This document shows positions 12,972-19,814 of a DNA stretch of 20,896 nt, in pieces. The stretch is from a virus. A program made the position numbers and the translations under genes. The notes under the pieces are model-generated. The model did no database searches. It saw only the letters and a program-made list of their open reading frames with translations, and was not told the DNA's origin. Position 1 is the first letter of the stretch. Each line of letters starts with the position of its first letter. The DNA lies in the IMG/VR virus record IMGVR_UViG_3300046454_000619, positions 1-20,896 of that record, one strand, 5' to 3'.

Positions 12972-14396
12972 TTAGCCCGGCAGCGCCTCGAACTCGTGGA
13001 CCCAGCGGATCACCTGTTCCGAGAACCCGTCCAGGTGGGTCCACCGCTCCCCGTAGCCGACGCCGTTCTGGTAGGCCGCGACGTTGATCAGGTACGCGCG
13101 GGCGGCGCGGGGCGGCGGCACGTGGTCGCGCGACTGCTCGTCGGTGATCACGATCAGCCGGTCCATATCGAGGTTCGCGAGGCTGCCCACCGCCGAGCCC
13201 AGCTGGGTTCCCTGGTGGGGCTGGCTGTCGATGATCTGGCGGATGCCGGATAGCCCCTGAGGAACCTCGTTGTTGAGCGCGACCAGGTGGTTCGAGAACG
13301 TATAGACGCGCACGTCGCCGTGGATCATAACCGCGAGCGCCGCTGCCGCGTCGATGCGGGAGAGGTCCGACTTGGCGGAGATCTTAGCGTCCATGGAGCC
13401 GGAGACGTCGACCAGCACGACCGTCCGGCCCGGTAGGACCGGGAGCTCGGCCACGGCGGCCCTCATGGCCGGGTCGAGGAACGGTACCATCTCCGGGCAC
13501 GCCCGCGCCGCCGCGACGTAGCGGAACGGCAGCACGCGGCGCGCCCCCTTGCGGGCGAGGATCGCGGACGAGACGAGGCTCGGGTCGACCCCGGCCTCGG
13601 TCATGTTCCGCAGGTTGCGCAGCAGCGCCAGATAGCCCAGCTTGCCGTCGCGCAGCTGACCCTCGAAGACGTCCTTCTTGTGCTGCTCCTTGGTGACGCC
13701 CTCGGCGGGGCCGGCGGACAGCCCCACCTCCCACGTGTCGGCGGACTTCACCTCGCCGGCGACGAGCTGTTTCCACAGCGCGGCCTGCTCGGCGTCCCTC
13801 GGCTTGGGGTGGACGAGGAACATCACGTCGCGGCCCTTGATCGGCTGGCCGGCCTCGCCGGAGGGCGAGAAATACTTCGCCAGCGCGTAGCGGTCGAACT
13901 TACCGAACGCCGCGGCCAGGCCCTTCTTGACCTGGGCTGACAGCTTCTTCTTGAGCGCCTTCGGCTCCACGCCGTTGGCCCGCGCGTAGACCGCGAGGAA
14001 CTCGCTCAGCTCGTCGGCGCGTTGGATAGTTTGGGAGATCGTATCGCTTACGATACGAGTTCCCGAACCGGTGCGCGCGAGGACGGCGCACAGCAGCAGC
14101 GGCACGTGCCGCAGGTTGAGGTGCGACCGCGCGTCGATCGCCAGCTGGGCGAGGACGGTCGGGGCCACCTGCCCGGCGAGGTCGGTGATCCGCGCCGCGA
14201 TGTCCTGGCCGGACTCGTAGAAGGTGTCCTCCCACAGGAGGCACGCGCAGACCGAGCGGCGCAGCGCCATTTCGGGCGAGATGAGCGCGGCCGGCGCGCC
14301 CTCGTGGGTGCGTAGCGTGTTGCTGGGCTCGAAGACGCGCGGCGGGGTTCCGCCCTGTGGCGGCAGCGCCGGCTTACGGGAGTTGAGTGCGGCCAT
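12972..14396 (-). CDS. Ro60 orthologue (TROVE domain plus vWA/MIDAS domain)
   Basis: 474 residues from ATG 14396, chosen because AGGAGG (14406-14411 on the complement) sits 9 bases upstream; ATG 14405 is an alternative. The N-terminal about 320 residues are the HEAT-like TROVE ring (PEMALRRSVCACLLWED, HLNLRHVPLLLCAVLA, RADELSEFLAVYARANG, YLALLRNLRNMTEAGV). The C-terminal vWA domain has a complete MIDAS motif DVSGSM (D330, S332, S334) and a later ITDEQS. Family knowledge: Ro60 is a doughnut-shaped protein that binds misfolded RNA ends and Y RNA; in Deinococcus, Y RNA tethers it to PNPase. Three structured RNAs with Y RNA features lie directly upstream on the same strand, behind promoter P1. 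Confidence 0.95.
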   Translation of the reverse strand: MAALNSRKPALPPQGGTPPRVFEPSNTLRTHEGAPAALISPEMALRRSVCACLLWEDTFYESGQDIAARITDLAGQVAPTVLAQLAIDARSHLNLRHVPLLLCAVLARTGSGTRIVSDTISQTIQRADELSEFLAVYARANGVEPKALKKKLSAQVKKGLAAAFGKFDRYALAKYFSPSGEAGQPIKGRDVMFLVHPKPRDAEQAALWKQLVAGEVKSADTWEVGLSAGPAEGVTKEQHKKDVFEGQLRDGKLGYLALLRNLRNMTEAGVDPSLVSSAILARKGARRVLPFRYVAAARACPEMVPFLDPAMRAAVAELPVLPGRTVVLVDVSGSMDAKISAKSDLSRIDAAAALAVMIHGDVRVYTFSNHLVALNNEVPQGLSGIRQIIDSQPHQGTQLGSAVGSLANLDMDRLIVITDEQSRDHVPPPRAARAYLINVAAYQNGVGYGERWTHLDGFSEQVIRWVHEFEALPG

Positions 14397-14448
14397 TGAG
14401 ATCATCCTCCTGGGGTGATCGACCGCTGGGAGAGGCACCGGGGGAACG

Positions 14449-14565
14449 GGCGGTAACGGGTTGTGTGGACCCCCTTGCGGGGGCACGCCGGGATTTGAAC
14501 CCGGACCCACGGCTTGATGGGCCGTTGCTCTACCAAAGAGCTTCGATGCAACCGTAACCTACGCC
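14449..14565 (-). ncRNA. Candidate Y RNA 3 (YrlA-like, with tRNA-like module)
   Basis: The ends pair: 5' GGCGTAGGTTACGGTTG (14565-14549) with 3' CAACCCGTTACCGCC (14463-14449). This gives helices of 3, 3, 4 and 3 bp separated by a GUA bulge on the 5' strand, a U-U mismatch and one bulged C. Inside is a tRNA-like module without acceptor stem: D arm GCTC/GAGC with GG in the loop (14541-14527), anticodon-like arm ACGGC-CCATCAA-GCCGT (14525-14509), canonical T arm CCGGG-TTCAAAT-CCCGG (14504-14488), then a hairpin CCCCC-GCAA-GGGGG with GNRA loop (14483-14470). A D, anticodon and T arm set on a long closing stem is what tRNA-mimicking bacterial Y RNAs show. It ends about 50 bases before the Ro60 start codon. 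Confidence 0.75.
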
Positions 14566-14595
14566 ACCCGGCGTCTATCCAGCGATCGAGGAACA

Positions 14596-14690
14596 AGCGG
14601 AAGCGGTACACCCACCGAGGTGGGTTCTGGGTTCGAACCAGATAGGATGCCCGAGGGCATCTTTTCACCGAAGTACCCGCGTCCTACGCC
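14596..14690 (-). ncRNA. Candidate Y RNA 2 (reduced tRNA-like module)
   Basis: 5' GGCGTAGGACGCGGGTAC (14690-14673) pairs with 3' GTACCGCTTCCGCT (14609-14596) as helices of 3, 3, 4 and 3 bp, with the same GUA bulge, a C-U mismatch at the same place as in copy 3, and one bulged G. The interior has a short D-like arm (TTCGGTGAA), a hairpin GATGCC-CTCG-GGCATC (14661-14646), a canonical T arm TCTGG-TTCGAAC-CCAGA (14642-14626) and an abutting hairpin ACCCAC-CTCG-GTGGGT (14625-14610). It is followed by TGTTCCTCG, matching the 3' flanks of the other copies. Confidence 0.75.
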
Positions 14691-14719
14691 ATCGACCTAA
14701 AACTCTGCGCTCGGGAACA

Positions 14720-14786
14720 GGCGGGATCGAGAGCGGGGCCGAAGCCCCAGGCGCTGTTCAAGTGCGATGAACTCGATCCCTACGCC
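14720..14786 (-). ncRNA. Candidate Y RNA 1 (minimal copy without T arm)
   Basis: 5' GGCGTAGGGATCGAG (14786-14772) pairs with 3' CTCGATCCCGCC (14731-14720): 3 bp, the GUA bulge, then 9 perfect bp. Inside are a small hairpin TTCA-TCGCACT-TGAA and GGGGC-TTCG-GCCCC with a UUCG tetraloop (14748-14735). There is no D or T arm. It starts about 8 bases downstream of the expected start of transcription at P1, and its 3' flank TGTTCCCGAG matches the other copies. It looks like a Ro-binding stem without the tRNA mimic. Confidence 0.6.
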
Positions 14787-14800
14787 ACGAGCACGGGGGG

Positions 14801-14829
14801 TTTATACTCTCCTTCGGCGGATAAGTAAA
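14801..14829 (-). promoter_or_regulatory. Promoter P1 for the Y RNA / Ro60 transcript
   Basis: On the complement: TTTACT (-35, 14829-14824), a 17-base spacer, TATAAA (-10, 14806-14801). The expected start is about 14794, just before candidate Y RNA 1. The layout, including the preceding T/A-rich tract, GGTTTACTT and CCCC after the -10 box, repeats at P2. Confidence 0.75.
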
Positions 14830-14856: not shown

Positions 14857-15468
14857 TTACGCCAACTCCACGTTATGATACAACCATGAGCCAAAATCTT
14901 CCCGCACGTCGTTCGCGAGGAACTCCAGGCCCGCGCGCAGCAGCTCCGCCGGGGTTGGTGCCCGCGGCGGCTTGAGCGGCCGGAGGCCCGACGCGCGCCG
15001 GGCCGAGTACCGCGGAAGGCTGTCCCGCTTGCGCTTGTTGCACTCGACGCACGCCGACACGATGTTGTCCCACCGCGTCTCGCCACCGCGCGAGCGCGGT
15101 ACGACGTGGTCGTACGTCAGCTCGGCTTCGTCGAATCGCTCCCCGCAGTACTGGCACCTATACCGGTCGCGCAGGAGGATCGAGCGCCGGCAGAACTTCG
15201 GCTCGGCGTCGACGCAGGCGTATGCACGTAGCATCATCACTTTCGGCACGGCGATGGTCGTGCTCGGTGAGCGAAAGAACGCGCCGGGCCACTCCTCGAC
15301 CACGATCGCCTTGTCCAGCCACGCGGCCGTGACGGCGTCGGCGGCCGAGATTAGGTTCAGCGGCCACGTGGATAGCGGACGGCCGTCGGCATTGAGCACC
15401 AGGGTGCGCAGCGTCGTCGGGTGGCGCAGCGAACTTCGCTCTTTGCTCTTAGCCCACGTGTGGATCAT
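14857..15468 (-). CDS. HNH endonuclease (C2C2 zinc type) between tRNA array and Ro60
   Basis: 203 residues. The N-terminal part (TLVLNADGRPLSTWPLNLISAADAV...) is the conserved leader of a common bacterial and phage HNH family. The core has C105-x2-C108, then YDHVVPRSRGGETRWDNIV (D120, H121, N135) and C140-x2-C143 followed by basic residues. Typical roles are nicking or cutting DNA, as a free-standing homing enzyme or in packaging or recombination. The ATG lies two bases after the encoded CCA of tRNA-Thr(CGT), and its only visible ribosome site (AGGAG) lies in that tRNA's acceptor stem. It ends 28 bases upstream of promoter P1. GC-rich like the phage backbone, so probably long resident. Confidence 0.9.
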   Translation of the reverse strand: MIHTWAKSKERSSLRHPTTLRTLVLNADGRPLSTWPLNLISAADAVTAAWLDKAIVVEEWPGAFFRSPSTTIAVPKVMMLRAYACVDAEPKFCRRSILLRDRYRCQYCGERFDEAELTYDHVVPRSRGGETRWDNIVSACVECNKRKRDSLPRYSARRASGLRPLKPPRAPTPAELLRAGLEFLANDVREDFGSWLYHNVELA

Positions 15469-15470
15469 GA

Positions 15471-15545
15471 TGGTGCTCCTGGAGAGAATCGAACTCGTCG
15501 TCTACCGCTTACGAGGCGGTTGTCCTGCCACTGAACGACAAGAGC
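15471..15545 (-). tRNA. tRNA-Thr(CGT)
   Basis: Acceptor GCTCTTG/CAGGAGC, A73 and CCA encoded. Anticodon loop CTCGTAA in a 5-bp stem ACCGC/GCGGT. T loop TTCGATT, but the T stem has only three good pairs. The acceptor strand also holds the ribosome site of the following HNH gene. Confidence 0.85.
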
Positions 15546-15547
15546 GT

Positions 15548-15622
15548 TGGTGCCCCGAGAGGGACTCGAACCCCCGACTCCCCGGTTAAAGGCCGGGAAC
15601 TCTGCCGCTGAGTTACCGAGGC
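15548..15622 (-). tRNA. tRNA-Lys(TTT), C33
   Basis: Acceptor GCCTCGG/TCGGGGC with wobbles, A73, CCA encoded. Anticodon arm CCCGG-CCTTTAA-CCGGG; position 33 is C instead of the near-universal T. T arm GGGGG-TTCGAGT-CCCTC is canonical. Confidence 0.88.
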
Positions 15623-15624
15623 GG

Positions 15625-15701
15625 TGGTGCGCAGTCTCGGATTCGAACCGAGAGGACCCGGTTTTTGAAACCAGGATGTCTACCAGTTGCATCAACTGCG
15701 C
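15625..15701 (-). tRNA. tRNA-Leu(CAA), short variable loop
   Basis: Acceptor GCGCAGT/ACTGCGC, A73, CCA encoded. Anticodon arm CTGGT-TTCAAAA-ACCGG. T arm CTCGG-TTCGAAT-CCGAG. D loop AACTGGTA is leucine-like, but the variable loop is only five bases where bacterial leucine tRNAs have a long arm. Confidence 0.82.
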
Positions 15702-15703
15702 CC

Positions 15704-15780
15704 TGGTGCGCACCGGGAGATTCGAACTCCCACTGGGCCGGGCTTAAACCGGCTGCCTCTACCAGTTGGGCTACGTGCGC
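15704..15780 (-). tRNA. tRNA-Leu(TAA), short variable loop
   Basis: Acceptor GCGCACG/GGTGCGC (last pair mismatched), A73, CCA encoded. Anticodon arm GCCGG-TTTAAGC-CCGGC. T arm GGGAG-TTCGAAT-CTCCC. Variable loop five bases. Close relative of the adjacent CAA copy (same acceptor start and D loop), so probably a duplication. Confidence 0.82.
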
Positions 15781-15782
15781 GG

Positions 15783-15857
15783 TGGTGGTCTCGCCGGGAG
15801 TCGAACCCGGATCTTAGGTTTCGGAGACCTACGCTCGGTCCATCGAGCTGCGAGACT
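15783..15857 (-). tRNA. tRNA-Arg(CCG)
   Basis: Acceptor AGTCTCG/CGAGACC (first pair mismatched), A73, CCA encoded. Anticodon arm TAGGT-CTCCGAA-ACCTA, D arm GCTC/GAGC, T arm CCGGG-TTCGACT-CCCGG. Its 5' 29 bases are also the 3' end of an HNH reading frame. Confidence 0.88.
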
Positions 15858-16293
15858 TAAGTTGTAAGCCAAGCTTAGTGAGTCTGCCTAATGCCCCTTT
15901 ACGGCCGCCTATTTTTAACCGTTCAAACGCTTCTGAACTAATATTCAGAGTTCCCCAAGTATCAGTCTGAGAATGACAGTTTGGGCAAAGACCTTGAAGA
16001 TTTTCACGCGAATTATCGTTTTTATTTCCGTTCAAGTGATCAAGTTCTAACCTAATAGGACGACCATTCCACTCAGTTATACCACAAATTAAGCACGCAT
16101 TTGATTGTTCTTCAAATACACGCTTTCTCCGTTTAGTTCTACCTAGCATTTCAAATGTACGTGGCAGCGTTATACGTTTTATTTTTCTAATCCTACGCGG
16201 GTTATTAAATTTAGCCGAACAAGATTGGCCGCAAAATTTGCCATTTCGATTTTTATAAGGTAATTCTTTACCGCAGTTTTGGCATATTTTCAT
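15829..16293 (-). CDS. HNH homing endonuclease inside the tRNA array, AT-rich
   Basis: 154 residues; ATG preceded by GAGAGG. The N-terminus is a small zinc motif (C4-x2-C7, C21-x3-C25: MKICQNCGKEL...FCGQSC). The HNH core has C67-x2-C70, LELDHLNGNKNDNSRENLQGLCPNCH (D85, H86, N98) and C103-x2-C106-H107. Such proteins are free-standing homing endonucleases common in phages. The DNA is far more AT-rich than the flanking tRNAs, so it is a recent insert. Its last nine codons and stop run into tRNA-Arg(CCG), so its C-terminus is partly dictated by tRNA sequence. No remnants of a split gene are visible. Confidence 0.9.
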   Translation of the reverse strand: MKICQNCGKELPYKNRNGKFCGQSCSAKFNNPRRIRKIKRITLPRTFEMLGRTKRRKRVFEEQSNACLICGITEWNGRPIRLELDHLNGNKNDNSRENLQGLCPNCHSQTDTWGTLNISSEAFERLKIGGRKGALGRLTKLGLQLKSRSSMDRA

Positions 16294-16312
16294 ATATACC
16301 TCTCGATAAAGA

Positions 16313-16384
16313 TGGAACCCCGCCCGAGGATCGAACTCGGCGCTGCTGGCTTAGAAGGCCTGCGTGCGTCCCAGCGCGCGGGGT
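16313..16384 (-). tRNA. tRNA-Arg(TCT), short D arm
   Basis: Acceptor ACCCCGC/GCGGGGT, T73, CCA encoded. Anticodon loop CTTCTAA in CAGGC/GCCAG (one A-A mismatch). T arm CCGAG-TTCGATC-CTCGG. Only 72 bases because the D region is 15 bases with a weak stem. Confidence 0.8.
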
Positions 16385-16386
16385 AT

Positions 16387-16458
16387 TGGCGCCCCCTGAG
16401 AGAGTCGAACTCCCCTTCCCGGGTTCGTAGCCCAGGTGCCGGGTCCGCCGGAGAGGGC
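16387..16458 (-). tRNA. tRNA-Arg(ACG), short D arm
   Basis: Acceptor GCCCTCT/AGGGGGC, G73, CCA encoded. Anticodon arm CTGGG-CTACGAA-CCCGG; A34 would need deamination to inosine by host TadA to read CGC. T arm GGGAG-TTCGACT-CTCTC. 72 bases with a reduced D arm. It directly abuts the next tRNA. Confidence 0.82.
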
Positions 16459-16532
16459 TGGTCGAGCGGACGGGATTTGAACCCGCGTTGGACAGATTGA
16501 AAATCTGTGGTCCTACCTTAGACGACCGCTCG
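16459..16532 (-). tRNA. tRNA-Glu(TTC)
   Basis: Acceptor CGAGCGG/CCGCTCG, A73, CCA encoded. D arm GTCT/GGAC, anticodon arm ACAGA-TTTTCAA-TCTGT, T arm GCGGG-TTCAAAT-CCCGT. Canonical throughout. Confidence 0.92.
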
Positions 16533-16534
16533 GT

Positions 16535-16786
16535 TTACCAGTAGTAGATGTGCGGCTTCTTCTCGACCGGCCAGACGATTCCCTCCGGGTCGCGCCCCTG
16601 CATCACCAGGACGACCGCGGCGCGGGTCCGGCGACGACGCGGCCGGGTGTGAAACGTGATGTCCCAGGCCCGCGGCCACTGGGAGAGCCAGTGGTAGCGG
16701 TCCCAGTCCGGCTGGCGCCGACGATGCTTGTCGCGTCCGCGGCAGTGGCGGGTCGTCCGCGGGTATCCGCGTTTGTAGTTCGCCAT
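16535..16786 (-). CDS. Small very basic phage protein of unknown function
   Basis: 83 residues; ATG preceded by AGGAGG at good spacing. The sequence is rich in Arg, His and Trp (MANYKRGYPRTTRH, HRRRQPDWDRYHWLSQWPRAW, HTRPRRRRTRA, ending KKPHIYYW). The high positive charge suggests nucleic-acid binding, but no named domain is recognised. It sits between tRNA-Glu and a 140-base structured gap and ends two bases before the tRNA start. GC content matches the backbone, and the strong start signals make it a real gene. Confidence 0.75.
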   Translation of the reverse strand: MANYKRGYPRTTRHCRGRDKHRRRQPDWDRYHWLSQWPRAWDITFHTRPRRRRTRAAVVLVMQGRDPEGIVWPVEKKPHIYYW

Positions 16787-16926
16787 GAGTAGCCTCCTGT
16801 GGGTAAGCTATGACATGACGAACCTCCTTTCATGGACGCGGGGCGACCCGAGGCGTTACCCAGAGCCGAGTCACCAAAAGTAACGAGCCGCCCGTCGGCG
16901 ACGGCTCCGGGGCTCTGTCCGCTTGT
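16787..16926 (-). other. Intergenic segment with hairpins and a two-codon leader frame
   Basis: No tRNA found. On the complement there are inverted repeats GAGCCG/CGGCTC with inner CCGTC-GCC-GACGG, AGAGCC/GGCTCT, and GTTAC/GTGAC. Near the downstream gene a strong ribosome site (AAGGAGG) precedes ATGTCATAG, a two-codon frame, before the gene's own AGGAGG. This could be the 5' leader of the 83-residue gene. Confidence 0.4.
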
Positions 16927-17000
16927 TGGTGGGTCCCCGAGGAATCGAACCCCGATCTGGAGTGTGTAGGACTCCGGCCCTGCCATTAGACGAGGGACCC
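16927..17000 (-). tRNA. tRNA-Val(TAC), C33
   Basis: Acceptor GGGTCCC/GGGACCC, A73, CCA encoded. D arm GTCT/AGGGC region with GG; anticodon arm GGAGT-CCTACAC-ACTCC with C at 33. T arm CGGGG-TTCGATT-CCTCG. Confidence 0.88.
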
Positions 17001-17004
17001 TGTA

Positions 17005-17076
17005 TGGCGCCGACGCGGGGACTCGAACCCCGGCTCCCTCGCTTAGGAGGCGTGGGCGCGATCCGTCGCCGTCGGC
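17005..17076 (-). tRNA. tRNA-Arg(CCT), short D arm
   Basis: Acceptor GCCGACG/CGTCGGC, G73, CCA encoded. Anticodon loop CTCCTAA in CACGC/GCGAG (one A-A mismatch). T arm CGGGG-TTCGAGT-CCCCG. 72 bases; D arm GCGA-CGGA-TCGC. Confidence 0.82.
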
Positions 17077-17081
17077 GGTAT

Positions 17082-17159
17082 TGGTCGGAGTGAGAGGATT
17101 CGAACCTCTGGCAACCCGCTTCCAGGGCGGGGACTCTGGCCTGACTGAGCTACACTCCG
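17082..17159 (-). tRNA. tRNA-Pro(TGG), C33
   Basis: Acceptor CGGAGTG/CACTCCG, A73, CCA encoded. D arm GCTC/GAGT, anticodon arm CCCGC-CCTGGAA-GCGGG with C33, T arm AGAGG-TTCGAAT-CCTCT. Confidence 0.88.
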
Positions 17160-17162
17160 TAA

Positions 17163-17237
17163 TGGCGCGCCCGACCGGGATCAAACCGGCCTGACCCGGT
17201 AGACAGCCGGGTGTCCTCTTCAGATGACTACGGGCGC
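17163..17237 (-). tRNA. tRNA-Asp(GTC)
   Basis: Acceptor GCGCCCG/CGGGCGC, G73 (expected for Asp), CCA encoded. Anticodon arm CCCGG-CTGTCTA-CCGGG. T loop TTTGATC has T in place of C56. Confidence 0.88.
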
Positions 17238-17242
17238 TTTGA

Positions 17243-17317
17243 TGGTGCGCGCGGAGGGACTCGAACCCCCGTCCTACTGGTTAAGGGCCAGCAGCTCTGC
17301 CGCTGAGCTACGCACGC
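17243..17317 (-). tRNA. tRNA-Lys(CTT), C33
   Basis: Acceptor GCGTGCG/CGCGCGC, A73, CCA encoded. D arm GCTC/GAGC, anticodon arm GCTGG-CCCTTAA-CCAGT with C33, T arm GGGGG-TTCGAGT-CCCTC. Related to tRNA-Lys(TTT), which also has C33. Confidence 0.88.
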
Positions 17318-17324
17318 GTGAAAC

Positions 17325-17398
17325 TGGTACCCCCACCCTGTACTGACCAGGGATTTCGCGGTTATCGGCCGCGCTCTCTACCATTGAGATATAGGGGC
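17325..17398 (-). tRNA. tRNA-Ile(GAT), C33 and non-canonical T loop
   Basis: Acceptor GCCCCTA/TGGGGGT, A73, CCA encoded. D arm TCTC/GAGA, anticodon arm CGCGG-CCGATAA-CCGCG with C33. T stem CCCTG/CAGGG is perfect but its loop is GTCAGTA, lacking the TTC motif. Confidence 0.78.
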
Positions 17399-17400
17399 GT

Positions 17401-17486
17401 TGGTGGGGAAAGGCTGAGTCGAACAGCGCGCCCGTAGGCGACCGGGTTACAGCCGGCTTACCGCGTCCCGCGGCTGACACTTCCCC
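17401..17486 (-). tRNA. tRNA-Tyr(GTA), class II
   Basis: Acceptor GGGGAAG/TTTCCCC, A73, CCA encoded. Anticodon arm GCCGG-CTGTAAC-CCGGT, long variable arm (CGCC..GGGCG) as expected for bacterial Tyr, T loop TTCGACT. Confidence 0.87.
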
Positions 17487-17487
17487 G

Positions 17488-17562
17488 TGGTGCCGTCGGC
17501 GGGGATCGAACCCGCAGCCTCCCGCTTACCAAGCGGATGCACGCCCATCGTGCTGCGACGGC
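17488..17562 (-). tRNA. tRNA-Thr(GGT)
   Basis: Acceptor GCCGTCG/CGACGGC, A73, CCA encoded. Anticodon arm TCCGC-TTGGTAA-GCGGG, T arm GCGGG-TTCGATC-CCCGC. Canonical. Confidence 0.9.
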
Positions 17563-17563
17563 T

Positions 17564-17653
17564 TGGCGGACAGCCTCGGGCATGATCCGAATCCCCTCTC
17601 GGGGACACACCGCTTAGCAGGCGGGTCCGGCAACCGTACCGGCTGTGCTGTCC
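17564..17653 (-). tRNA. tRNA-Ser(GCT), non-canonical T loop
   Basis: Acceptor GGACAGC/GCTGTCC, G73 (serine), CCA encoded. Anticodon loop CTGCTAA, long variable arm (TCCCC..GGGGA). T stem TTCGG/CCGAG encloses ATCATGC rather than a TTCRA loop. Confidence 0.8.
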
Positions 17654-17657
17654 TAAT

Positions 17658-17746
17658 TGGCGGGCGACCGAGGTCCTGATCCCCATGCCCCGGAGGGCAC
17701 CACCGGTGTTCGAAGCCGGGCCGCGCGCTCGCGCGGTTGATCGCCC
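17658..17746 (-). tRNA. tRNA-Ser(CGA), non-canonical T loop
   Basis: Acceptor GGGCGAT/GTCGCCC, G73, CCA encoded. Anticodon loop TTCGAAC in CCGGC/ACCGG (last pair C-A), long variable arm TGCCC..GGGCA. T stem TGGGG/CCTCG with loop ATCAGGA. Confidence 0.78.
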
Positions 17747-17749
17747 TTA

Positions 17750-17838
17750 TGGAGGAAGGCGGGTGGTGTCGATCCCCACCCCTTTGCGGGGCCACCGGGT
17801 TTCAAAGCCGGGCCGCGAGCCGTCGCGGTTCACCTTCC
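17750..17838 (-). tRNA. tRNA-Ser(TGA), degenerate T arm
   Basis: Acceptor GGAAGGT/GCCTTCC, T73, CCA encoded. Anticodon loop TTTGAAA, long variable arm GGCCCC..GGGGT. The T arm is atypical: GGTGG/CCACC with a nine-base loop. Confidence 0.74.
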
Positions 17839-17996
17839 GTAAACCTTCTTCCCCTGGCTAGGATTATGAGTCCGCGCGCCAGCGCACCAAGCAGGTTTAG
17901 AGCCCACCAGCACTCGGGGCTGACTAGGCCCCTATGGGGAGTTGGGGTGGGACCCTCTGCCCAGTAGTCAGCCGGGCCGCTTTCCCACCGTGCCTC
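17839..17996 (-). other. 158-base unresolved structured gap between two serine tRNAs
   Basis: No complete tRNA fits. On the complement there is a 9-bp inverted repeat GGCTGACTA/TAGTCAGCC, a 7-bp pairing GGTGGGA/TCCCACC, and a part closed by TAAACC/GGTTTA (next to the Ser(TGA) 5' end). That part contains CTGGC/GCCAG and a methionine-like hairpin GGA-CTCATAA-TCC, but has no room for a T arm. It may be decayed tRNA genes or another small RNA. Confidence 0.4.
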
Positions 17997-18085
17997 TGGA
18001 GGATGCCGTCGCTGCCGACGCGAACGCCCTCCCGGGCGCCAACCGGCTTCCGACCGGTGCCGGGGGCCGCCCCGGTTCAGCATCC
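17997..18085 (-). tRNA. tRNA-Ser(GGA), C33, degenerate T arm
   Basis: Acceptor GGATGCT/GGCATCC, T73, CCA encoded. Anticodon arm ACCGG-TCGGAAG-CCGGT with C33, long variable arm GCGCCC..GGGCG. The T arm region lacks a TTCRA loop. Fourth serine acceptor, completing NCU/UCN coverage with the other three. Confidence 0.74.
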
Positions 18086-18091
18086 ATTAAC

Positions 18092-18168
18092 TGGTGCGCA
18101 GGGAGGGAGTCGAACCCTCAAAACTCCACGGTCTGAACGTGGCGACTTTACCGTTTGCCCACCTGCGC
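18092..18168 (-). tRNA. tRNA-Leu(CAG), short variable loop
   Basis: Acceptor GCGCAGG/CCTGCGC, A73, CCA encoded. Anticodon arm CCACG-TTCAGAC-CGTGG, T arm GAGGG-TTCGACT-CCCTC, D loop with ACGGTAAA. Variable loop six bases, no long arm. Confidence 0.83.
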
Positions 18169-18175
18169 GGTGGCT

Positions 18176-18251
18176 TGGTACGCGCGGGGCGACTCGAACG
18201 CCCACTTGCGAGGCCCTCGACCTCGTGCCTCTACCGTTGGGCTACGCGCGC
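18176..18251 (-). tRNA. tRNA-Leu(GAG), C33, short variable loop
   Basis: Acceptor GCGCGCG/CGCGCGT, A73, CCA encoded. Anticodon arm CGAGG-TCGAGGG-CCTCG with C33, T arm GGGCG-TTCGAGT-CGCCC, variable loop five bases. Confidence 0.83.
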
Positions 18252-18256
18252 ATAAT

Positions 18257-18333
18257 TGGTCGTCCCAGGGGGAATCGAACCCACCTCCTCCGCCTTGAGA
18301 GGGCGGCGTCCTAGGCCGGTAGACGATGGGACG
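18257..18333 (-). tRNA. tRNA-Glu(CTC)
   Basis: Acceptor CGTCCCA/TGGGACG, A73, CCA encoded. D arm GTCT region, anticodon arm CCGCC-CTCTCAA-GGCGG, T loop TTCGATT. Abuts tRNA-Gln(TTG). Confidence 0.88.
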
Positions 18334-18407
18334 TGGAAGGCCTCCAGGGATTCGAACCCCGATACACGGCATCAAAAACCGTGGGCTTGCCGTTAGCCGA
18401 GAGGCCC
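18334..18407 (-). tRNA. tRNA-Gln(TTG)
   Basis: Acceptor GGGCCTC/GAGGCCT (first pair G-U), T73, CCA encoded. Anticodon arm ACGGT-TTTTGAT-GCCGT, T arm CGGGG-TTCGAAT-CCCTG. Confidence 0.88.
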
Positions 18408-18551
18408 GTCGTCGCTGGTAGGGGATGCGGGAATCGAACCCACGTCCTCCGGGTCAGAGCCGGATGCACTGGCCGCTGTGCTAATCCCCATCAATTCGTT
18501 GCGCTGCTCCTCGGCCAGGGCCAGGAGGCGCTCGATCTCGTCCCGCGTCAT
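18393..18551 (-). CDS. Short protein (52 aa) running through tRNA-Gln genes
   Basis: ATG 18551 has AGGAGG at ideal spacing. The first 20 codons (MTRDEIERLLALAEEQRNEL) look like a charged amphipathic helix. The frame then reads through the whole of tRNA-Gln(CTG) and stops inside tRNA-Gln(TTG), so the last about 30 residues are dictated by tRNA sequence. It may be a real small helix protein whose natural stop was lost. Function unknown. Confidence 0.4.
   Translation of the reverse strand: MTRDEIERLLALAEEQRNELMGISTAASASGSDPEDVGSIPASPTSDDGPLG
18416..18490 (-). tRNA. tRNA-Gln(CTG)
   Basis: Acceptor TGGGGAT/ATCCCCT with an open first pair (U-U); a weak 1-72 pair is typical of glutamine tRNAs. A73, CCA encoded. 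Anticodon arm TCCGG-CTCTGAC-CCGGA, T arm GTGGG-TTCGATT-CCCGC. A short reading frame runs through it. Confidence 0.88.
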
Positions 18552-18666
18552 CGCGCCCTCCTCTCAAGATCGTGTTGAACCGGCACGGGCCTCCGGAGGC
18601 CGGGCATCGGAGCTCGTGGAGCTCCGGGTCGTAGGTCGCGCATGGCGTTAGGAGGTCCGACGGCAT
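18481..18666 (-). CDS. Short Cys-containing protein (61 aa) in the tRNA array
   Basis: ATG 18666 is preceded by GGAGGT at good spacing; an upstream in-frame ATG at 18699 lies within tRNA-Thr(TGT) and is unlikely. The sequence MPSDLLTPCATYDPELHELRCPASGGPCRFN contains three cysteines that could bind zinc. The second half overlaps the next short frame out of register and is Gly/Arg/Pro-rich. Function unknown. Confidence 0.4.
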   Translation of the reverse strand: MPSDLLTPCATYDPELHELRCPASGGPCRFNTILRGGRDDAGRDRAPPGPGRGAAQRIDGD

Positions 18667-18683
18667 ATCGCTTACCTCCGAAT

Positions 18684-18760
18684 TGGTGCCCACGGTCACG
18701 ATTCGAACGGACGACTTCCGGCTTACAAAACCGGCGCTCTGCCGACTGAGCTACGCGGGC
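18684..18760 (-). tRNA. tRNA-Thr(TGT)
   Basis: Acceptor GCCCGCG/CGTGGGC, A73, CCA encoded. D arm GCTC/GAGC, anticodon arm CCGGT-TTTGTAA-GCCGG, T loop TTCGAAT with an imperfect stem. Third threonine isoacceptor. Confidence 0.87.
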
Positions 18761-18766
18761 GAATAA

Positions 18767-18931
18767 GCATACGCGGGCTACGCGATGGGACTTTCATGCG
18801 TCGTGTAATTCCAAGCGGATTAGATGGTACTCTTAGGCCGCCCTCGTGCCCCGCAGTCTCCGCTCACCGGGGTACCGCCCGTACGGACAACCGCTTCCCT
18901 GTACACGCTCAGGGCGTAGCCCACGTATGCT
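18767..18931 (-). ncRNA. 165-base structured RNA closed by a 17-bp helix, unknown type
   Basis: GCATACGTGGGCTACGC (18931-18915) pairs with GCGTAGCCCGCGTATGC (18783-18767). The single imperfect pair is a G-U wobble on the minus strand but a C-A mismatch on the plus strand, which points to a minus-strand RNA. Inside are CCCTG/CAGGG, AAGCGG/CCGCTT, GGTAC/GTACC and CCCCG/CGGGG pairings. It lies tightly between tRNA-His and tRNA-Thr(TGT) and does not fit a tRNA, tmRNA or RNase P RNA by eye. Confidence 0.55.
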
Positions 18932-18934
18932 TAC

Positions 18935-19010
18935 TGGGGTGAGGTGCGGGTGCTGGCCCCGCTGCTTCGCCTTCACAGGGCGACGTGTCCTCTGGTTCAC
19001 TAACCTCACC
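18935..19010 (-). tRNA. tRNA-His(GTG), encoded G-1, non-canonical T loop
   Basis: Extra 5' G pairs with C73, the histidine identity element: GGTGAGGT/ACCTCACC then CCA. Anticodon arm TCGCC-CTGTGAA-GGCGA, D arm GTG/CAC. T stem GCGGG/CCCGC is perfect but the loop is GCCAGCA. Confidence 0.82.
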
Positions 19011-19011
19011 A

Positions 19012-19084
19012 TGGAGCCACGCTGGCGAATCGAACGCCTTGTCCCGGGTTGCAACCGAGCGCCTCTCCATTTGGCTTGCGCGGC
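19012..19084 (-). tRNA. tRNA-Cys(GCA)
   Basis: Acceptor GCCGCGC/GCGTGGC, T73 (expected for Cys), CCA encoded. D arm GCC/GGC, anticodon arm CTCGG-TTGCAAC-CCGGG, T loop TTCGATT. Confidence 0.88.
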
Positions 19085-19085
19085 T

Positions 19086-19158
19086 TGGCACCGGCGGAGC
19101 GGAATTGAACCCTCCTGCAGGGGTTTGGAGTCCCTGATGTTCACCAGAACGCGCCGGT
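19086..19158 (-). tRNA. tRNA-Trp(CCA)
   Basis: Acceptor ACCGGCG/CGCCGGT, G73 (expected for Trp), CCA encoded. Anticodon loop CTCCAAA in AGGGA/CCCCT (last pair A-C). T loop TTCAATT, T stem with one bulged base. Confidence 0.87.
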
Positions 19159-19161
19159 AAT

Positions 19162-19237
19162 TGGCTCCCATCCCAGGTACCGCCCCTGGCCGCATCGGAT
19201 TAACAGTCCGCGCCGTTCGCTTGCTCGGTCGATGGGA
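19162..19237 (-). tRNA. tRNA-Asn(GTT), non-canonical D and T loops
   Basis: Acceptor TCCCATC/GATGGGA, G73, CCA encoded. Anticodon arm GCGGA-CTGTTAA-TCCGA. T stem CCAGG/CCTGG perfect with loop GGCGGTA. The D arm CCG/CGG has loop AGCAAGCGAA without the usual GG, so both tertiary-contact partners changed together. Confidence 0.8.
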
Positions 19238-19342
19238 ATGAAACTGTTGAGTGAGAATTTTACATAGCCCCCACTCACGGCTCTCATCGCGACGCTTCAA
19301 CCCAAGCTATCCTAGGTCCGGGGTGTATACGAGTCGCGAAAC
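19238..19342 (-). other. 105-base gap with short hairpins
   Basis: No tRNA or gene recognised. On the complement TCGCGAC/GTCGCGA pairs over about 40 bases, and GTGAG/CTCAC encloses ATGTAAAATT. It may be spacer, a processing element or a decayed tRNA. Confidence 0.35.
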
Positions 19343-19417
19343 TGGAGCGGACGGCGGGAATCGAACCCGCTACCGGGTGCTTGGAAGGCACCGACTCTGC
19401 CAATGAGTTACGCCCGC
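19343..19417 (-). tRNA. tRNA-Gly(TCC)
   Basis: Acceptor GCGGGCG/CGTCCGC, T73, CCA encoded. Anticodon arm GGTGC-CTTCCAA-GCACC, T arm GCGGG-TTCGATT-CCCGC. Canonical. Confidence 0.9.
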
Positions 19418-19418
19418 G

Positions 19419-19494
19419 TGGTGCCGAGACCTGGGATCGCACCAGGATGTCGCCGCCTTCAACGGCGCGCGAGGACTACCTTTGCTATCTCGGC
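19419..19494 (-). tRNA. tRNA-Phe(GAA)
   Basis: Acceptor GCCGAGA/TCTCGGC, A73, CCA encoded. Anticodon arm CGCCG-TTGAAGG-CGGCG. T stem CCTGG/CCAGG with loop TGCGATC, in which position 55 is G instead of T. Confidence 0.87.
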
Positions 19495-19499
19495 GAAAT

Positions 19500-19576
19500 T
19501 GGAGGCAGGGAGCGGATTCGAACCGCTGACCTCGAGGTTATGGGCCTCGCGCGCTGCCAGGCTGCGCCACCCTGCG
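19500..19576 (-). tRNA. Initiator tRNA-fMet(CAT), C33
   Basis: Closely follows bacterial initiator tRNA: CGCAGGGTGG start, GCAGCCTGGCAGC D arm, and an unpaired C1-C72. Anticodon arm CGAGG-CCCATAA-CCTCG has C33, and only two of the three usual G-C pairs at the loop end. T arm AGCGG-TTCGAAT-CCGCT, T73, CCA encoded. Confidence 0.82.
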
Positions 19577-19584
19577 TCAAAATC

Positions 19585-19660
19585 TGGTCCCGGTGGGTGG
19601 AGTCGAACCAACCGACCTAGCCGTTATGAGCGGCCCGATCTTCCGCTGATCTACACCGGG
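19585..19660 (-). tRNA. tRNA-Met(CAT), elongator (or Ile2)
   Basis: Acceptor CCCGGTG/CACCGGG, A73, CCA encoded. Anticodon arm GGCCG-CTCATAA-CGGCT. T loop TTCGACT. With a paired first position it is not an initiator; a lysidine-modified isoleucine tRNA for AUA cannot be excluded by sequence. Confidence 0.85.
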
Positions 19661-19661
19661 G

Positions 19662-19735
19662 TGGAGCGGCCATGGGAAATCGAATCCCACCCTTCTCGTT
19701 GGCAACGAGATGCTCGACCTCCGAGCTGTGGCCGC
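19662..19735 (-). tRNA. tRNA-Gly(GCC)
   Basis: Acceptor GCGGCCA/TGGCCGC, T73, CCA encoded. D arm GCTC/GAGC, anticodon arm TCTCG-TTGCCAA-CGAGA, T arm TGGGA-TTCGATT-TCCCA. Confidence 0.92.
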
Positions 19736-19739
19736 AATT

Positions 19740-19814
19740 TGGTGGAGAACGAGGGAATCGAACCCTCATGACGCGATCTTGCAAGGATCGCCGCCGCCCC
19801 AGCAGCCGTTCCCC
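19740..19814 (-). tRNA. tRNA-Ala(TGC)
   Basis: Acceptor GGGGAAC/GTTCTCC, A73, CCA encoded. Anticodon arm CGATC-CTTGCAA-GATCG, T arm GAGGG-TTCGATT-CCCTC. First tRNA of the array after the leader; the canonical G3-U70 pair of alanine is present (third pair G-T). Confidence 0.9.

Follow-up and report, generated by a model that had tools for sequence, protein, structure and literature searches.

Tandem putative Y RNAs with a shared Ro60 handle and differing heads, one of them an unpermuted tRNA body, upstream of a phage ro60 gene

Introduction

Likely Y RNAs near Ro60 were reportedly noted by Chen et al. in 2014 in many bacteria and phages. Knowledge of what Y RNA heads do is limited and comes mostly from a few RNAs. 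In Deinococcus, a Y RNA acts as a tether between PNPase and the Ro60 orthologue and as a gate to the latter (PMC8394870, PMC4726728, PMC7790460), and reports of YrlA in phages are cited in PMC7765460. The YrlA family in Rfam (RF02553) has a permuted consensus order, with a T arm, an acceptor hairpin and then a D arm. Here we analyse a 20,896-base IMG/VR virus record (IMGVR_UViG_3300046454_000619; the whole record is referred to as the window), in which three tandem elements, Y1, Y2 and Y3, lie on the minus strand beside a ro60 gene. These elements are almost certainly Y RNAs, and we compare them with their counterparts in other phages and in bacteria.

Results

On the minus strand, GGCGTAGG occurs at 14779-14786, 14683-14690 and 14558-14565 (5' starts 14786, 14690 and 14565), and each copy is then closed on its 3' side by GCC/GCT-(T/C)GTTCC. 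The elements bounded in this way, Y1 (14714-14786, 73 nt), Y2 (14590-14690, 101 nt) and Y3 (14443-14565, 123 nt), are all on the ro60 strand and directly upstream of that gene. Their ends pair into a handle of the general form GGC-GUA(bulge)-P2/P2'-GCY-YGUUCC, in which three pairs are followed by a GUA bulge on the 5' side and then by about eight more pairs: GGC(GUA)GGGATCGAG/CTCGATCCC-GCC in Y1 (with its tail, GGC-GUA-GGGAUCGAG/CUCGAUCCC-GCC-UGUUCC), GGC(GUA)GGACGCGG/CCGCTTCC-GCT in Y2, and GGC(GUA)GGTTACGG/CCGTTACC-GCC in Y3. The heads differ, with two plain hairpins in Y1, a hairpin, a T arm and another hairpin in Y2, and a normally ordered tRNA body followed by a GCAA hairpin in Y3. A purpose-written handle scanner returned exactly three matches, scoring 37, 29 and 30 for Y1, Y2 and Y3. 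Among 1000 dinucleotide-preserving shuffles of the region, one match of at least 26 arose in four cases and two or three matches never did; a chance origin of the three handles is negligible.

An earlier, sequence-only reading had described three segments on the ro60 strand with common ends, a GUA bulge and differing middles, and both the sequence and the scanner confirm this description. The range that it gave, 14449-14786, places the array correctly but excludes the conserved CGTTCC tail of the third copy, the true end being 14443. The pyrimidine mismatch to which it drew attention in the second and third copies is present at the fourth P2 pair (C-U in Y2, U-U in Y3), but it is not a special signature. 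We rejected it as a mark of the family, as this pair is the loosest of the helix and shows many kinds of mismatch among 60 distinct relatives.

The neighbouring gene, ro60 (12972-14396, minus strand, 474 aa), begins 46 bases past Y3 and has an AGGAGG Shine-Dalgarno-like sequence shortly before its ATG. In Pfam its product matched TROVE above the cut-off and vWA_Ro60 just below it (27.4 vs 27.7 bits). An AlphaFold model (mean pLDDT 83.7) submitted to Foldseek gave 13 PDB matches at E < 0.001, all of them Ro60 or TROVE proteins and including 9KOP, 1YVP, 2NVO and 9NEN; the top match was the Ro60 of Thermus phage phiLo, and Xenopus Ro60 complexed with RNAs and Deinococcus Rsr were also found. The MIDAS residues D330-x-S332-x-S334 and D419 are invariant and T397 is nearly so, and the closest cellular relatives by sequence belong to Caulobacterales and other alphaproteobacteria (~55-60% identity). 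The product is a bona fide Ro60, with the TROVE ring fold and a vWA domain with MIDAS residues, and the phage Ro60 gene proposed from the letters alone is upheld by Pfam and by AlphaFold with Foldseek.

The handle was surveyed in 40 IMG/VR relatives of this Ro60 and 12 annotated phage loci. Upstream of ro60 on its strand, a first scanner detected 32 TTCC-tailed elements in 86 kb; the opposite strand had none, and the remaining regions had 0 to 2 each. A relaxed scanner detected 84 elements upstream on the ro60 strand of the phage loci against one on the other strand, and 47 against one across 80 bacterial ro60 loci. The handle therefore characterises this branch of Ro60 loci in general, in bacteria as well as in phages. 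The heads show no homology in length or order, which is why composite statistics of the handle took the place of a whole-RNA covariance model; covariation was scored on 65 elements picked by sequence anchors only (60 distinct handles), at the four P2 pairs left free by the anchors. These positions were paired in 85% of cases, vs 47% (sd 3, maximum 57) for shuffled and 34-42% for slid partners; when each locus contributed a single element, the figures were 89% vs 50%. Four to six standard pair types occurred at the free positions. The covariation of the handle is strong, though relatedness is not removed by shuffling, and the sequence-only reading, which had named the lack of covariation in homologous loci as the finding that would count against it, comes out of this comparison well.

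Y1 orthologues, with a compensatory change in P2, occur in Brevundimonas jumbo phages, and orthologues also occur in contigs L177 to L179. An independent test, in which IMG/VR was searched with the handle alone, gave 26 loci, 24 of which have a Ro60 on the same strand, nearly always adjacent; the handle by itself thus predicts a neighbouring ro60. At two places, L064 261-356 and L072 1927-1988, the motif was seen with no Ro60 in the stretch examined, and these could be chance occurrences, truncated loci, or Y RNAs without their own Ro60.

A promoter had been postulated ahead of the array, and a probable one is found at 14801-14829 on the minus strand, with a -35 box TTTACT (14829-14824), 17 bases, and a -10 box TATAAA (14806-14801), which read by eye carry 9 of 12 consensus bases. 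The rule of the promoter scanner missed this TTTACT-17-TATAAA upstream of Y1. The proposal is backed by the sister phage L177, which has TTGACA-18-TATATT (11/12 consensus) at the same place just upstream of Y1; in L179 the boxes are preserved and the spacer is altered. No terminator-like site was found between Y1 and ro60, either in the window or in the sister array.

Read from 5' to 3' on the minus strand, Y3 holds a D arm (14527-14541, GCUC-UUUGGUA-GAGC), an anticodon arm (14509-14525, ACGGC-CCAUCAA-GCCGU, with five pairs, seven loop bases and AUC at the anticodon position), a four-base spacer, a T arm (14488-14504, CCGGG-UUCAAAU-CCCGG), a hairpin (14470-14483, CCCCC-GCAA-GGGGG) and the 3' strand of the handle. 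The Rfam tRNA model matches 14486-14545 with 40.5 bits (cut-off 29), over model positions 6-65 of 71. There is no seven-pair acceptor stem and no CCA end; the ends form the Ro60 handle instead. Within the window, ARAGORN called a tRNA-Pro at 14479-14568, a misfold in which D-loop bases are taken as the anticodon, and it did not call Y3 among the isolated RNAs. The nearest phage tRNAs are ~77-85% identical over 46-55 bases and the tRNAs of the window are no better; with similarities this low, no donor tRNA can be named. Other Y RNAs have been annotated as tRNAs: a tRNA-Ser in Gurke (L044 2769-2843), a tRNA-Gln in CcrColossus (L046 2179-2246) and a tRNA-Thr in Xanthomonas phage 10KY502B (L054 2804-2871).

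A scan for a handle, a D arm and a T arm in that order retrieved only L177, L178 and L179, three contigs of one lineage with the same D-anticodon-T-GCAA hairpin layout (the last hairpin being CCCC-GCAA-GGGG) directly upstream of Ro60; a further scan for Y3-type elements starting with GGTGTAG gave no matches. The Ro60 proteins of L177 and L178 are 61% identical to that of the window, and both contigs keep the order promoter-Y1-Y2-Y3-ro60, with a Y2 that has its own T arm (L177 3351-3444); Y2 is missing from L179. Counted by named helices (the MAFFT alignment misplaces the 3' strand), Y3 of the window and Y3 of the sister lineage differ by nine compensatory pairs, three each in P2, the anticodon stem and the T stem, and by one single-sided change; 18 pairs are the same, none is broken, and one mismatch stays a pyrimidine mismatch. 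The anticodon loop is CYAUCAA in both lineages while the anticodon stem has been rewritten by its three double changes. At the level of sequence, this comparison settles the normal D-anticodon-T order of Y3. Bacterial anticodons rarely begin with adenine, as the predicted AUC of Y3 does, and Y3 lacks a CCA end, so that decoding by Y3 is unlikely.

Y2 has a T arm (14626-14642, minus strand, UCUGG-UUCGAAC-CCAGA) with no D arm after it; a YrlA from which the D arm was lost is another possible reading. Y1 is devoid of tRNA arms. From 34 phage loci came 70 distinct elements, namely 17 minimal hairpins no longer than 60 bases, about 18 elements in which, as in YrlA, a D arm comes after a T arm, and a remainder with either a lone T arm or no tRNA arm. 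None of the RNAs in 33 array loci reached the YrlA gathering cut-off of 69 bits, and full-length matches below it were obtained in Xanthomonas phage Olaya (50.0 and 39.6 bits), CcrColossus (42.3) and Gurke (38.8). Y hairpins of minimal size (50-55 nt), as many as three of them in tandem, are seen at L080 4227-4426, L086 1967-2090 and L078 4750-4874; each amounts to hardly more than a handle closed by a small loop, and they might serve purely as headless Ro60 caps.

Several array RNAs combine a short GG-containing hairpin (CUUC..GG..GAA or GAG), a hairpin at the anticodon position and a T arm abutting the 3' strand of the handle. Such unpermuted RNAs occur in phage loci (L006 1874; Gurke, L044 2645; CcrColossus, L046 2381; CcrPW, L047 2382; and further L086 2108, L069 1227, L176 6575 and L173) and in bacteria (L149 and, less clearly, L133 and L146). 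The middle arm ends in a seven-base loop (e.g. CUCUAAA) or in a tetraloop. The first element is short and is taken here as a putative D arm, and among the unpermuted RNAs a canonical D arm is found only in Y3 and its sisters. Four loci flagged by a rule requiring D before T (L023, L100, L137 and L139) were judged spurious once their arms were read. The loops CUCUAAC of L173 (2046-2135, reverse complement) and CUCUAAA of L176 (6575-6661) place CUA (amber) at the anticodon position, and no Ro60 was present in the stretch examined of L173.

Around the array, 26 same-strand tRNA genes at 15471-19814 are interrupted by HNH endonuclease genes (14857-15468 and 15829-16293) and by a small ORF (16535-16786). 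Rfam tmRNA matches (permuted or alphaproteobacterial) lie near the Ro60 loci of Brevundimonas phages (L044 6345-6690 and L045 6766-7021), and another tmRNA match lies near the Ro60 locus of L069 (3913-4204). The array-bearing Brevundimonas/Caulobacter jumbo phages W01, W02, W04 and W05 all code an RtcB RNA ligase elsewhere in the genome.

Discussion

The array is very probably best explained as a set of Y RNA partners of the phage's own Ro60, made from one promoter, processed, and bound by the protein. That the elements are Ro60 partners, as the sequence-only reading proposed, passes the available tests: the neighbour is a real Ro60, the handle covaries, and the handle predicts ro60. A single promoter before Y1 would probably transcribe Y1-Y2-Y3-ro60, the array part of the transcript would be cut apart into separate Y RNAs, and Ro60 translated from the same transcript would bind them. 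By analogy with studied Y RNAs, the handle would bind the Ro60 ring, and the head may restrict other access to the ring (a gate) or tie the ring to a partner such as host PNPase (a tether). Any of three heads, two of which bear tRNA-like arms, could then be loaded onto one Ro60 to give three kinds of particle. The likeliest use would be to steer the phage protein, during infection, towards enzymes that bind tRNA or towards an exonuclease. Expression of the array RNAs, their binding to Ro60 and their gate or tether roles are what we infer, and for the use of Y1 to Y3 as gates or tethers we see roughly even chances.

Several results weigh against this explanation. An RNase PH/PNPase domain is coded by none of the ten array- or Ro60-bearing phages searched; any PNPase partner would therefore be the host's. 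Energy minimisation of Y3 favours a fold with a different anticodon hairpin (-50.6, compared with -44.4 for the fold given here); as thermodynamics on its own does not single out the latter fold, comparative evidence was sought. RF02553 has no match in the array and only weak, chance-level matches elsewhere in the window; the Rfam search for a Y RNA or YrlA family, which had been suggested as a check, gave the tRNA model alone for the array. The third copy does mimic a tRNA, as one type of bacterial Y RNA does, but in unpermuted order and with no Rfam YrlA match. RtcB is coded by four of the ten phages searched, fitting an RNA-repair setting, in which TROVE proteins of jumbo phages have been discussed (PMC7824862).

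The same layout could suggest a cis-acting role of the elements within the leader of the ro60 mRNA, through which Ro60 would bind its own message for self-control with no separate RNAs made, as nearly all elements are 5' of ro60 on its strand and no terminator-like site intervenes. However, elements lie downstream of ro60 in L063 and L083 and one lies more than 4 kb upstream in L069, a leader switch has no need for tandem copies with different heads, and the bacterial Y RNAs studied so far are separate RNAs of ~90-150 nt (PMC8394870); we consider a leader function quite improbable. The tRNA call by ARAGORN and the above-threshold Rfam tRNA score might instead indicate that Y3 is an ordinary or decaying tRNA gene that lies near ro60 by chance, with Y1 and Y2 as chance repeats. 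Yet Y3 lacks an acceptor stem and CCA, the Rfam match covers only part of the model, the ARAGORN anticodon is drawn from D-loop bases, and the ends form a Ro60 handle with three P2 double changes relative to the sister lineage. This account is extremely improbable for Y3, and for the array as a whole it is refuted by the handle shuffles, the P2 double changes and the missing acceptor stem.

A different role for Y3 and similar RNAs would be that of a decoy anticodon arm for host anticodon nucleases, shielding the phage tRNAs and stabilised by Ro60. Y3 has a full anticodon arm whose loop was kept despite the rewritten stem, it adjoins the array of 26 tRNAs, and a competitive-inhibitor role has been proposed for Salmonella YrlA (PMC7790460). 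The conservation of the loop comes from two lineages only, however, other unpermuted Y RNAs have tetraloops in that arm, and Y1 has no tRNA arm, so that a decoy role is possible but tenuous and, on balance, unlikely.

Taking the array as Ro60-partner Y RNAs, we read the unpermuted members as normally ordered tRNA mimics, with a Ro60 helix that would stand in for the acceptor stem; YrlA would be the same body opened elsewhere, with the acceptor closed as a hairpin. More tentatively, and with somewhat less than an even chance, these RNAs may represent a second kind of tRNA-mimicking Y RNA, present in phages and some bacteria, in which Ro60 would grip the aminoacyl end and the elbow would be presented (together, in the Y3 type, with a real anticodon arm and its conserved loop), allowing phages to aim Ro60 at tRNA-acting enzymes or to mislead them. 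Natural arrays in which one Ro60 is accompanied by several heads, some with a differently oriented tRNA body, offer ready comparisons of head function. The handle motif can serve as a search key for Y RNAs that fall below the Rfam cut-off or that phage records list wrongly as tRNAs, and with it the role of phage Ro60 can be put to the test in Caulobacter and Brevundimonas phages that are in culture.

In kind, Y RNAs next to phage Ro60 are already known, and the array adds a member. An unpermuted tRNA body that keeps a complete anticodon arm is new as far as could be checked, and may have been described already. Like YrlA, the array RNAs are encoded beside Ro60, with paired ends that correspond to the Ro60-binding stem and with a tRNA-like head, and their relatives match RF02553 over its full length below the cut-off; unlike the T arm-acceptor hairpin-D arm order of YrlA, Y3 runs D-anticodon-T and has a full anticodon arm. 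The same tandem handle occupies the gap upstream of ro60 in CcrColossus, CcrPW, Brevundimonas phages and Xanthomonas phage Olaya, with a Y1 orthologue in the Brevundimonas phages and unpermuted Y RNAs in CcrColossus, CcrPW and Gurke, but in contrast to the window those phages also carry permuted RNAs of the YrlA type, and CcrColossus has at least six elements. Vertebrate Y RNAs share a Ro60-binding lower stem with a three-nucleotide bulge, although their sequence is not homologous (PMC4726728), their heads differ and no Rfam Y RNA family matches in the window. The Y RNA, Rsr and PNPase of Deinococcus radiodurans (RYPER), in which a Y RNA is likewise encoded beside a Ro60 orthologue, provide the presumed working model (PMC8394870, PMC4726728); PNPase tethering has been shown there and would apply to the window by analogy.
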